Made by a program: the position numbers and the translations under genes | Notes under the pieces: generated by a model | Told to the model about the DNA's origin: nothing | The model's database searches: none | What the model saw: only the letters and a program-made list of their open reading frames with translations | Source of the DNA: Sandaracinaceae bacterium | GTDB taxonomy: Bacteria; Myxococcota_A; Polyangia; Polyangiales; Sandaracinaceae | Direction of reading: 5' to 3' | Length of the DNA: 64,000 nucleotides | Assembly (NCBI GenBank): GCA_019694315.1 | Contig: JAIBCE010000001.1 | Location: forward strand, 62,001-126,000 | Shown: positions 37,725 to 42,121 of the stretch, piece by piece | Position numbering within the stretch: the stretch's first letter is position 1 | How the letters are laid out: every line of letters starts with the position of its first letter

Positions 37725-40328
37725 ATGAGGGTCAGGGAGCACACGGGCCGGTGCGGCTCGAAGGTCTCGTCGTGTCTGGCGATCGCGCTGTCGCTCTCGG
37801 CGCTCTCGGCGCTCTCGGCGCGGGCGTCGGCGCAGACCCTCGACGGCGCGCTGGCCAACGCGCAGCTCGGGCGCGCCCTCGCGATGCAGGGCGGACGCCT
37901 CGTGGTGGGCGAGCTCGTGGACGGAGACGAGACGGTGGGGCGCGCGTACGTGTACGACGTGCGCGGCGCGAGCCCCGTGCTCGAGGCCACGCTGAGCCCG
38001 TTCGGCCCCGAGAACGCAGAGCACTTCGGCATGAGCGTGGCGATCGACGGTGATCGCGTGTTCGTGGGCGCGCCCGACGCGGACGCGTACTCGCTCGGCG
38101 CGCTCTACGTGTTCGAGCGACAGAGCGATGGGCGCTGGCTCGGTGTGCAGCGGCTCGTGGAGTCGCCGCGCGGGGAGCCGCCGCGGATCGGGGGGCCCGA
38201 CAATTTCGGCGGGTTCTTCGGGTGGCGCATCGTGCCCGTGGGGGACGTGCTCGCGGTGTCGGCACCGTACTACGACCGCTGGCGCACGGCGCAGGGCGCG
38301 GTGGTCTTCTTCACGCGCGACGCGGGCACGGGCCTCTACACGCAGGCGCTCCTCGTCGCGAGCCCCGCGACCACCCACGACCCGACGTGCAGCAATTGCG
38401 AGCTCTTCGGCTTCGGGCTCGCGTTCGATGGACATCGCCTCGCGGCGTCGAACGGCAAGAACGAGACTGTGTATCTCTGGGACGTGGACACGAGCGCAGG
38501 GGTCCGGCTGAGCGGGCCGCGCACGATCACCCGCGCCACGTACGCGGACGCGACCGGGCCGCGGCGTGACCTCTTCGGCTGGGGCCTCGCCTACGCGGGG
38601 AGCACGCTCTTCGCGGGCGCGCGCAACGCGTACGTGGGCGGGCTCGAGCGCGGCGCTGTGCTCGCGATCGACGAGGCGAGCGGCACCGAGGAGCTCGTGG
38701 TCGGCGCGAGCATGCCCTTCGGCACGCTGCCCGGCACACCGAGCTTCGGGACGAGCATCGTGAGCGACGGGGATCTCGCCGCGATCGGCGGCGACGACCT
38801 GGCGAACGTGCGCGTGCTCGAGCGCGTGGCGGGCCGCTGGCGCCTCGGACGCACGATCACGACGACGGCCAGCTACGGCCGCTTCGGCTCGACGCTCGCG
38901 CTCGAGGGAGGCCTGCTCGCGATCGGCGCGCCGAACGAGGACACCTCGCACGGGGCGCACGCCGGACGCGTGTCGCTGCACTGGCTGGCGCTCGTGGGCG
39001 AGAGCTGCGACACGACGACCCTCTGCGCGAGCGGCACGTGCGACGCGGGGCTCTGCGTCGATGGCGTGCCCACCGACGCGGGGATCCGCGATGCGGGCCC
39101 GGCCGACGCCCGTGTGGTGGATGCCAGTCCCGTGGATGCCAGTCCCGTGGATGCCAGTCCCGTGGATGCCAGTCCCGTGGATGCCAGTCCCGTGGATGCC
39201 AGTCCCGTGGATGCCAGTCCCGCGGATGCCAGTCCCGTGGATGCCAGTCTCGTGGATGCCAGTCCTGGGAACGCCGATGCCGGTCTCGCGTCGATGCCGG
39301 ACACGGGCCTCGTGCCGCGGGTCGAGGTGAGCTGCGCGTGCCGCGCGGTCGGAGGCACGGGGCGGAGCGGCGGAGGGCCGCGATCGCTCGGGATCCTGGC
39401 CCTCTTGGTGCTCGGTCTCGTGCGTCGTCGTCGGCTCGCGCGTCACGCGGCGGGGCTCGCCCTGCTCGGGTCGCTCGCGCTCTCGTGCCCGGTGGCGCAG
39501 GCCCAAGCGACGTCGTCCACGGACGCCTCGACTGCGGAGACCACGCCTCCCAGCGAGGCCGCGCTCGCCGAGGCGCGGGCGCGCTTCCAGCTCGCGCAGG
39601 CGCACTATGCAGCGGGCAGCTTCGCCGACGCGGCCGAGGAGCTCGAGCGGGCGTATGCGCTCTCGGGCCGTGACGCGATCCTCTACAACCTCCACCTCGC
39701 GTACCGGGAGATGGGCGACGTGCCGCGCTCGGCCGAGGCGCTGCGCCGCTACCTGGCGGTGGCCGACGAGGATGATCTGCCCGTGGAGCGGCGCGCGCTC
39801 GAGAACCGACTCGCCGCGCTCGAGCGCACGCTCGCAGCGAGCCGCCCCGAGGTCCGGGACGACATTCGACCCGACATCCATCCCGACATCCATCCTGATA
39901 TCCGGGGCGAGCTCCGAGCCGAGGAGCCCAGTGACACCGCGCCGCAGCTGGCGGGCGAGGGCCTGTCAGAGACCACGACGGGCCTCGATCTCGCGCCCGG
40001 CGCGATCGTGCTCGGAGTGGGCGGGGCGAGCCTCGTGGCCTCTGCGATCCTCGGCGCGATCGCGGCCTCCACCCTCGCGGAGCGCGATCACGCATGCAGC
40101 CTCGGGGTGTCCGGCGATCTCTGCCCGGCGTCCTATGATCAGGCCTCGATCGTCGAGCGCTTCGTGGTGCAGCGAGACGTCGCGTGGGCTCTCTTCGCAG
40201 GTGGCCTCGGCGTGGCAGCGACCGGCGCCGTACTCCTCGTGGTGGGCGCGAGCGACGATGCGCCCTCGCCCGTGAGCGCCACGTGCGGGCCCACGGGCTG
40301 CGAGCTCGCTGCGACGATGCGCTTCTAA
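37725..40328 (+). CDS. secreted FG-GAP-like protein with internal MYXO-CTERM-like tail fused to a second secreted TPR protein
   Basis: An 867-residue open frame with a double plan. Residues 1-37 are a signal (ALSLSALSALSARASAQ). About 38-420 are FG-GAP/integrin-like repeats (FGMSVAIDGDRVFVGAPDAD, FGWGLAYAGSTLFAGA, FGSTLALEGGLLAIGAPNED). A short Cys pair region (425-447) and ten VDASP repeats follow. CACR at 537-540, a Gly/Arg spacer, LGILALLVLGLV (555-566) and RRRR make a MYXO-CTERM-like tail. It is followed at once, in frame, by a second signal-like stretch ending AQA (591-593), a TPR-like domain (about 608-690) and a C-terminal membrane region. No stop separates the halves; GTG 39420 could start the second. 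Confidence 0.8.
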   Translation: MRVREHTGRCGSKVSSCLAIALSLSALSALSARASAQTLDGALANAQLGRALAMQGGRLVVGELVDGDETVGRAYVYDVRGASPVLEATLSPFGPENAEHFGMSVAIDGDRVFVGAPDADAYSLGALYVFERQSDGRWLGVQRLVESPRGEPPRIGGPDNFGGFFGWRIVPVGDVLAVSAPYYDRWRTAQGAVVFFTRDAGTGLYTQALLVASPATTHDPTCSNCELFGFGLAFDGHRLAASNGKNETVYLWDVDTSAGVRLSGPRTITRATYADATGPRRDLFGWGLAYAGSTLFAGARNAYVGGLERGAVLAIDEASGTEELVVGASMPFGTLPGTPSFGTSIVSDGDLAAIGGDDLANVRVLERVAGRWRLGRTITTTASYGRFGSTLALEGGLLAIGAPNEDTSHGAHAGRVSLHWLALVGESCDTTTLCASGTCDAGLCVDGVPTDAGIRDAGPADARVVDASPVDASPVDASPVDASPVDASPVDASPVDASPADASPVDASLVDASPGNADAGLASMPDTGLVPRVEVSCACRAVGGTGRSGGGPRSLGILALLVLGLVRRRRLARHAAGLALLGSLALSCPVAQAQATSSTDASTAETTPPSEAALAEARARFQLAQAHYAAGSFADAAEELERAYALSGRDAILYNLHLAYREMGDVPRSAEALRRYLAVADEDDLPVERRALENRLAALERTLAASRPEVRDDIRPDIHPDIHPDIRGELRAEEPSDTAPQLAGEGLSETTTGLDLAPGAIVLGVGGASLVASAILGAIAASTLAERDHACSLGVSGDLCPASYDQASIVERFVVQRDVAWALFAGGLGVAATGAVLLVVGASDDAPSPVSATCGPTGCELAATMRF
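39117..39266 (+). repeat. ten tandem 15-bp coding repeats (gtggatgccagtccc)
   Basis: Ten units encode VDASP with two variants (ADASP, VDASL). Near-perfect identity at DNA level implies recent slippage expansion. It is the linker before the MYXO-CTERM-like tail. Confidence 0.95.
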
Positions 40329-40576: not shown

Positions 40577-42121
40577 ATGTCGCGTCCCTCTCTTCGGCTC
40601 GCCTCTTCGCTCGTCCTCGCGCTCGTGGGCCTCTGGGCCGCGCCGCTCGCCGCACAGACGGTGCAGCTCGGCGAGCCCAACGCGAACCGCTTCTATGCCT
40701 CGCCGGCGGGCGGCTTCTTGATGGTCGATGGCTCGGACGTGTCGGGCGAGCTCCAGCCGTACTTCTCGGTGATGGCCGACTACTCGCATCGGCCGATGAC
40801 GCTCGACAACGTGCGCGCGCTGACCGTGGGCGGCGACCCGCGCAACGACGACCTCGACGTGGTCGGCGGCATGACGACCCTCCAGATCAACGGCGCGCTC
40901 GCGCTCTTCGATCGCCTGCAGATCGGCCTCAACATCCCCGTGGTGCTCCACACGTTCGGGGCCTCGTACGAGTGGACCCAGGCGGCCTGCAGCCCGCCGG
41001 AGTGCGATCCGCCGCAGCCCATGCACCTCTACCGCTTCCGTGGCGGCGACGGCGCGACGCTCGGCGATCCGCGCCTGCACCTGCTCGTGAACATCATCGA
41101 TCCGGACGATGCGAGCGGCATCGGCTTCGGTGTGGCGGCGTGGGCGACAGCGCCCGTCGCGCGCGCGGTCCTGCCGGGCCGGTATGCGGGCGACCCGAAC
41201 GTGGCGTTCGGCGGGCACCTGATCTTCTCGGTGGCGGTCGAGCGCTTCCGCGCGGCGATCAACCTCGGCGGCGCCTACCACGACACCGCGCAGATCGTGC
41301 TGCGAGAGGGCGTGGAGGGCTCGGCGCGCACGCCGGAGATGACCTGGGGCGCGGCCGCGCAGTACGACTTCGACGAGATGTGGGGCCTCCTCGCGGAGAT
41401 CACCGGGGCGACCACGTTCGGGCTCGTCTACGACAACGAGGCGCCCACCGAGCTCCGGGCTGCAGGCGTGCTCCGCATCGACGACTTCACGATCCGTCTC
41501 GGCGCGGGCGCGGGCCTCGCGTACGCGATCGGTGTGCCCGTGTTCCGCGTGCTCGGAGACATCGCGTACTCGCCGCGGCCGGTGCACGACAGCGACGGCG
41601 ACGGTCTCAAGGACGACGTGGACAACTGCCCCGCCGACGACGAGGACTTCGATCAGTACGCCGACGAAGACGGATGCCCCGAGCCCGACAACGACGACGA
41701 CGGCGTGCTCGACGCGACCGACCAGTGCCCGAACGACGCCGAGGATCGCGATGACGTGAACGACGAGGACGGCTGCCCCGATCCCGACGACGACGGCGAC
41801 GGGATCGCCGACGGCTACGACTCGTGCCCTGCGCAGCCCGAGGATCGCGATGGCGACCGCGACGACGATGGCTGCCCCGACACCGATCGCGATCGCGACG
41901 GCCTCAACGACGACGTGGATCGCTGTCCCGAGGAGCCGGAGGACACCGACGGTCTCGGCGACGAGGACGGCTGCCCGGACGTGGACTTCGACTCGGACGG
42001 GGTGCCCGACAGCGACGACGAGTGCCCCGAGGAGGCCGAGGATCGAGACGGCTTCGAGGACGCCAACGGCTGCCCGGAGGAGGGCTCGGCGCCCGTGCGC
42101 GGGCGGCAGCGCGGCCGGTGA
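40577..42121 (+). CDS. outer-membrane protein with thrombospondin type-3 (Ca-binding) repeats
   Basis: A 514-residue exported protein. The signal ends in PLAAQ. Residues about 25-330 look like an outer-membrane barrel (strands such as IQINGALALFDRLQIGLNIPVVLH, AAINLGGAYHDTAQIVL). From about residue 335 there are six to seven Asp-rich repeats of the type DxDxDGxxDxxDxCP (DSDGDGLKDDVDNCP, DNDDDGVLDATDQCP), which bind Ca2+ in thrombospondin type-3 and OmpA-linked proteins. The usual C-terminal OmpA peptidoglycan-binding domain is absent; the protein ends in a short Arg-rich tail. Confidence 0.85.
   Translation: MSRPSLRLASSLVLALVGLWAAPLAAQTVQLGEPNANRFYASPAGGFLMVDGSDVSGELQPYFSVMADYSHRPMTLDNVRALTVGGDPRNDDLDVVGGMTTLQINGALALFDRLQIGLNIPVVLHTFGASYEWTQAACSPPECDPPQPMHLYRFRGGDGATLGDPRLHLLVNIIDPDDASGIGFGVAAWATAPVARAVLPGRYAGDPNVAFGGHLIFSVAVERFRAAINLGGAYHDTAQIVLREGVEGSARTPEMTWGAAAQYDFDEMWGLLAEITGATTFGLVYDNEAPTELRAAGVLRIDDFTIRLGAGAGLAYAIGVPVFRVLGDIAYSPRPVHDSDGDGLKDDVDNCPADDEDFDQYADEDGCPEPDNDDDGVLDATDQCPNDAEDRDDVNDEDGCPDPDDDGDGIADGYDSCPAQPEDRDGDRDDDGCPDTDRDRDGLNDDVDRCPEEPEDTDGLGDEDGCPDVDFDSDGVPDSDDECPEEAEDRDGFEDANGCPEEGSAPVRGRQRGR

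Follow-up and report, generated by a model that had tools for sequence, protein, structure and literature searches.

C-terminal sorting tags are regarded as the ends of proteins, and polyproteins of exported proteins are, to our knowledge, rare in bacteria. Proteins with a MYXO-CTERM tag are exported by Sec, anchored by the tag helix, lipidated on cysteine (a proposed step), cleaved by MrtX in a Cys-dependent manner and delivered to the cell surface by type II secretion (PMC11980579). One internal MYXO-CTERM tag is already published: Guo, Haft and Wall (2025) reported that such tags are rare, described MXAN_5598 of Myxococcus xanthus as a probable gene fusion whose N-terminal part was proposed to be processed at the internal tag, and cited precedents for sorting tags functioning in mid-protein (PMC11980579). 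There MXAN_5598 is described as one atypical case, and the main text contains neither split twins nor a start-codon analysis (PMC11980579). In a related arrangement, the ORFs of TraA and TraB overlap by four bases (PMC3325183).

The gene described here lies in a 64-kb stretch of Sandaracinaceae DNA (the window; 71% GC). Translation of positions 37725-40328 on the forward strand, which carries all parts of the gene given below, yielded a single stop-free open frame of 867 codons, followed by a stop. In order, the product consists of a signal peptide, FG-GAP repeats, a PVDAS linker, a CACR motif with a transmembrane segment and RRRR, a second signal-peptide-like segment ending in AQA, a TPR region and two hydrophobic helices. 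The original prediction of a complete sorting-type tail in mid-protein, followed in frame by a second signal-like segment and TPRs, was borne out, the motifs being located exactly as claimed. GC contents at codon positions 1/2/3 were 0.72/0.57/0.90 in the N-terminal half, 0.82/0.67/0.86 at the junction and 0.77/0.55/0.87 in the C-terminal half. The frame is coding in both halves and across the junction, with codon periodicity intact.

The first signal peptide (residues 1-36; 37725-37832) was predicted by eye, with a putative cut at ASA. It is followed by a beta-propeller-like FG-GAP repeat domain (residues about 87-418; 37983-38978), which matched FG-GAP_2 in Pfam at 1.4e-18 and had no match among solved structures in the PDB. 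A low-complexity Asp/Ala/Pro linker (39060-39308) leads to the CACR motif (residues 537-540; 39333-39344), the expected site of lipidation and myxosortase cleavage, and to the predicted first junction helix, TM1 (LGILALLVLGLV; residues 555-566; 39387-39422). The RRRR cluster (residues 567-570; 39423-39434), predicted to be cytoplasmic, also provides the positively charged n-region for the second signal peptide, whose hydrophobic segment, TM2 (residues 571-593; 39435-39503), ends in AQA (591-593) and aligns with signal peptides at the N-termini of standalone homologues (e.g., C576 of the window's genome). The predicted second product (39504-40325) comprises TPR helices at about 611-705 and hydrophobic helices at about 757-792 and 806-840. 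Its match to TPR_14 in Pfam was weak (8.9e-4) and under the family cut-off; against PDB structures the TPR part matched consensus TPRs only (5.5e-19). An AlphaFold model of the full chain was of low confidence (mean pLDDT 46.8; about 40 at the junction) and placed helices at 554-566 and 572-593; we took it as weak support for these two junction helices only.

Some further features of the region were recorded. The linker contains a 15-bp tandem array (39117-39265; 9.9 copies, 97% match) that codes for the PVDAS repeats and likely varies in length among strains. Two Cys pairs occur in the C-terminal region (40080-40327), one of them common to both fused homologues described below, and the last residue is Phe in all three fused proteins. 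The next gene downstream (40577-42121) encodes 514 aa with a signal peptide and thrombospondin type 3 repeats (TSP_3); its product is possibly an outer-membrane barrel protein, and the gene may be a neighbour in function.

TIGR03901, the official profile for MYXO-CTERM, did not match the window protein, and the tag is not C-terminal, with 297 residues following RRRR. Its assignment as MYXO-CTERM-like rests on the tripartite layout, namely a short motif with invariant Cys, a hydrophobic helix and an Arg cluster, and on the fused homologues. In these, the paralogue on contig C162 of the window's genome (G000) scored 21.5 bits in the genome scan (cut-off 20) and 15.2 bits as a full-length protein, and the orthologue on contig C90 of a congener (G001) scored 15.2 bits. 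CxC was invariant in the three fused homologues and in seven of seven genus-level junctions. The window's genome also encodes an MrtX-like Rce1 protease (C256; NF040593, 2.5e-26; PF02517, 9.3e-17), whose match to NF040593 covered the C-terminal part only and reached about 95 of 180 bits, under the curated cut-off.

Genus-level comparisons were made between G000, an 8.67-Mb draft of 630 contigs, and G001 (MAG UWPOB_DELTA5), the one further genome of the genus that the search covered. The orthologue (L038:2697-6524) carries both halves in one frame at 41% identity, and the paralogue (L047:57-3245) is a second fused gene with 39% identity over residues 466-867. Alignment of the fused copies showed CxC, the Arg cluster, the second signal with its signal-peptidase-like end at the same place and the TPRs, all in one frame; these continuous homologues thus retain the CxC-TM-Arg signal in their middle. 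The congener and the paralogue have this junction in the same position, so it is not a product of chance. The original prediction had offered a fusion of two genes by stop loss as one explanation. Since both the orthologue and the paralogue share the join, a stop lost recently or an error in the reads is rejected; as an ancient origin, fusion is supported by the standalone TPR halves elsewhere and by the tree given below. In the other relatives inspected, the TPR half was a standalone gene, about 300 codons long, with an N-terminal signal peptide of its own aligning where the fused junction lies.

Among 22 TPR halves placed in a tree, the standalone C576 grouped with the three fused copies in a single clade (100/96), within which C576 was nested beside the window copy (98/93); a tree constrained to unite the three fused copies was disfavoured (p-AU 0.02). 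The fusion thus appears to be old and to have been undone once, because a standalone gene nests inside the fused clade, and the simplest history suggested by the sequences is one fusion and one later release. As the tree was drawn from chosen loci, this history is a reading rather than a proof. The signal peptides of the standalone homologues and the position of C576 also indicate that the TPR part can function unattached. An apparent split FG-GAP/TPR pair at G046:C26 was discarded, there being no MYXO-CTERM tag upstream.

We then considered internal tags elsewhere in the phylum. Of 74 TIGR03901 matches checked in G000 and 72 in G001, nearly all were followed by a stop 0-42 residues further on. 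Internal matches were found at C162 and C420 of G000 and at C90, C6, C79 and C80 of G001, and in every one of these a second signal peptide or a lipobox came next; the exception among internal tags, G000:C623 (L147), continued into 413 in-frame low-complexity residues without a second signal peptide. G000:C420 and G001:C6 share the order amidase_3, MYXO-CTERM, lipobox and second protein, while G001:C79 joins a Cys-rich protein to a lipoprotein with MopE repeats and G001:C80 joins FG-GAP repeats to a lipoprotein. Because TIGR03901 alone misses the window tag and other fused tags (e.g., G000:C73), a junction profile (A2) was built from seven joints and run over 144 genomes of the order. This search gave further stop-free, full-length matches in other families, and the 26 matches that were read (25 full-length plus G083:C200, which covered profile positions 5-53) had the same layout. 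They included Cys-rich proteins joined to MopE lipoproteins, a second recurrent family (e.g., L257, L262, L263, L270, L272, L274), NIDO proteins joined to lipoproteins (L266, L269), the L259/L260/L232 family, a protein with a Peptidase_M2 partner (L264), and L276 (G016:C169), in which FG-GAP repeats and MYXO-CTERM precede OmpA with partial TraB similarity. Altogether, 41 stop-free joints from MYXO-CTERM to a second signal peptide were located in at least seven protein families, and sampling the phylum more widely yielded seven additional joints, one of them in the single-contig genome G268. These counts describe recurrence and not frequency, because the search profile includes the second segment. 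In at least seven families an internal tag was almost always followed by another signal peptide or lipobox, and an AxA signal-peptidase-like or lipobox end was present in nearly all junctions. Separately, a junction-profile match at G001:C251:1029-1175 (L326) spanned one TGA and may represent a same-frame split pair.

The same two halves were also found as neighbouring genes when a profile of the MopE family (A3) was run over 189 genomes. Both states were present in each of G002, G006, G053 and the window's own genome, which has a fused copy on C73 and a split pair at C595:23975-24675, on the contig of the window. In all eight split pairs that were read, which come from the one MopE-lipoprotein family, the first gene's stop overlapped the second gene's ATG (ATGA in seven, TGATG in one). 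A Shine-Dalgarno sequence (GAGG to AGGAGG) lay 5-6 nt upstream of that ATG in seven of the eight, inside the codons of the terminal arginine-rich tail. The split locus of the window's genome (L138; G000:C595:22800-25600), outside the 64-kb window, shows the MYXO-CTERM and MopE lipoprotein genes overlapping at ATGA, with GGAGG in the arginine codons. The fused joints differed in this respect. Starts were scored in 40 of the 41 (G053:C33 was left out, its lipobox having been missed by the search pattern): 10 offered no start codon in frame from the arginines to the second signal segment, 30 contained some start codon, and two had a start with a Shine-Dalgarno sequence of at least 4 nt. The contrast between fused and split forms had a Fisher p of 3.7e-6, which is indicative only, given the relatedness of the sequences. 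In the tree made to count the fusions of the MopE family, 18 of the 22 inner branches were open, and we therefore give no number of origins for that family. As a side observation, the stops of terminal MYXO-CTERM genes overlapped an NTG of a frame of at least 60 codons in 19 of 67 cases in G000 and 17 of 60 in G001 (about a quarter); some of these frames encode exported proteins and others are probably chance frames.

Taken as a whole, we consider it probable that the window gene encodes a two-product precursor, made as one chain, whose membrane hairpin would be cut by myxosortase on one side and by signal peptidase on the other. Of the three explanations in the original prediction, a polyprotein cleaved at the sorting site is the best supported. 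The direct basis of the precursor reading is the continuous frame, its conservation, the missing initiation signals and the gene for an MrtX-like protease; we infer the topology, the two cleavages and where each product ends up. The first part (signal peptide, FG-GAP repeats and linker) would be exported and would end in a MYXO-CTERM-type signal internal to the chain, the hydrophobic helix of which would act as a stop-transfer segment and leave RRRR in the cytoplasm. Export would resume at the next hydrophobic segment, which would serve as a second signal peptide and bring the TPR part to the outside. A tag in mid-chain with a signal peptide after it is expected to form a hairpin with RRRR inside. 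Cleavage by MrtX on the CxC side would then yield a lipid-anchored FG-GAP protein destined for the surface, and cleavage by signal peptidase I after AQA would free the TPR protein in the envelope. Counting against the precursor reading, TIGR03901 misses the window tag, the MrtX candidate falls below the cut-off and 30 of the 40 scored joints hold start codons; the low confidence of the model at the junction, the origin of the split pairs in a single family and the relatedness of the sequences compared weigh against it as well. Initiation without a Shine-Dalgarno sequence is possible.

The main rival, which we regard as unlikely, is that the chain is never cut and functions as a single polytopic membrane protein whose two domains lie outside the inner membrane, tethered by the helical hairpin. 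The topology (out, TM1, RRRR in, TM2, out), the two helices of the low-confidence model and the retention of the frame in orthologues all suit such a protein. A mere tether, however, would have no need of CxC, a motif that all three fused homologues and the seven junctions retain, and in nearly all junctions the second segment keeps a signal-peptidase-like AxA or a lipobox at its end; moreover, the split twins of one family are two proteins, and a standalone TPR copy arose within the fused clade.

It is less plausible still that the second half is a separate same-frame gene starting at the GTG at 39420-39422 (V566), as had been proposed originally, the long frame being an in-frame overlap without biological read-through; we hold this improbable. 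The GTG stands directly before the arginines in the window gene and in the paralogue on C162, and overlapping stop and start codons are the rule in the split pairs and in TraA/TraB (PMC3325183). However, the GTG of the window gene has no Shine-Dalgarno sequence, and it is not conserved, because the orthologue on G001:C90 has no ATG, GTG or TTG from the arginines to the middle of the second hydrophobic segment; G000:C420 likewise has no start codon between the tag helix and the lipobox. A start backed by a Shine-Dalgarno sequence was missing from 38 of the 40 fused junctions, a quarter of which had no usable start at all, as against one of the eight split pairs. With no stop after the tag, ribosomes must therefore read on. 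A recent accident, whether stop loss, pseudogene formation or assembly error, is refuted in the main and deserves very little credence. The genome is indeed a draft in many contigs, but the join occurs in the assembly of another species and in the paralogue, similar joins are present in the single-contig genomes G002 and G268, and codon periodicity is unbroken across the junction.

Since the same join occurs in unrelated families across the phylum, paired envelope proteins may be synthesized as a single chain that is cut in the membrane. For the Myxococcota in general we offer, as a tentative proposal that we take seriously without holding it probable, that a MYXO-CTERM helix, an Arg cluster and a second signal peptide or lipobox form a dedicated polyprotein junction. 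Partners would be made either from stop/start-overlapping genes whose Shine-Dalgarno sequence lies among the arginine codons or together in a single chain that myxosortase and signal peptidase I or II cut on either side of the hairpin, fixing 1:1 synthesis. Were the joint cut on both sides, it would provide a route to equal amounts of surface proteins and their envelope partners, and in fused genes the surface protein would probably have the C-terminal half as its partner, in the way that TraA has TraB. The joint is also a clean substrate for asking whether myxosortase requires its tag at the end of the chain.

Several known systems resemble the window gene in part. The fbcH gene of Bradyrhizobium encodes a cytochrome b/c1 polyprotein. 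Like the precursor proposed here, this bacterial polyprotein is split at a signal peptide within the chain; unlike it, fbcH involves neither a sorting tag nor a myxosortase, and the proteins are unrelated. The NCBIfam lipo-invert profile NF058595 gave sub-threshold matches of up to 28 bits (cut-off 37) on several MYXO-CTERM-to-lipobox junctions and no match on the window protein, and it is named for a C-terminal anchor, not a two-protein joint. With the system of TIGR03901 and MrtX (NF040593) the gene shares the Cys motif, hydrophobic helix and Arg cluster, and an MrtX-like protease is encoded in its genome, whereas TIGR03901 tags are C-terminal and the window tag is internal and lies outside the profile. 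TraA and TraB, like the split pairs found here, are a MYXO-CTERM surface protein followed by an exported partner in overlapping ORFs, but they are two genes with a stop between them and not a fused frame. As far as the literature searched shows, the recurrence of the joint in many unrelated families, the stop/start-overlapping split twins and the missing initiation signals of the fused form are new beyond the work of Guo, Haft and Wall. The closest counterpart is MXAN_5598, in which, as in the window gene, an internal MYXO-CTERM tag stands in frame between an N-terminal adhesin-like region and a second envelope protein. The second half of MXAN_5598 is an outer-membrane barrel with OmpA, absent by Pfam from the window protein, which has TPRs instead; among the joints found, L276 has the layout nearest to it. 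Judged by this shared layout, the window gene would work like MXAN_5598.
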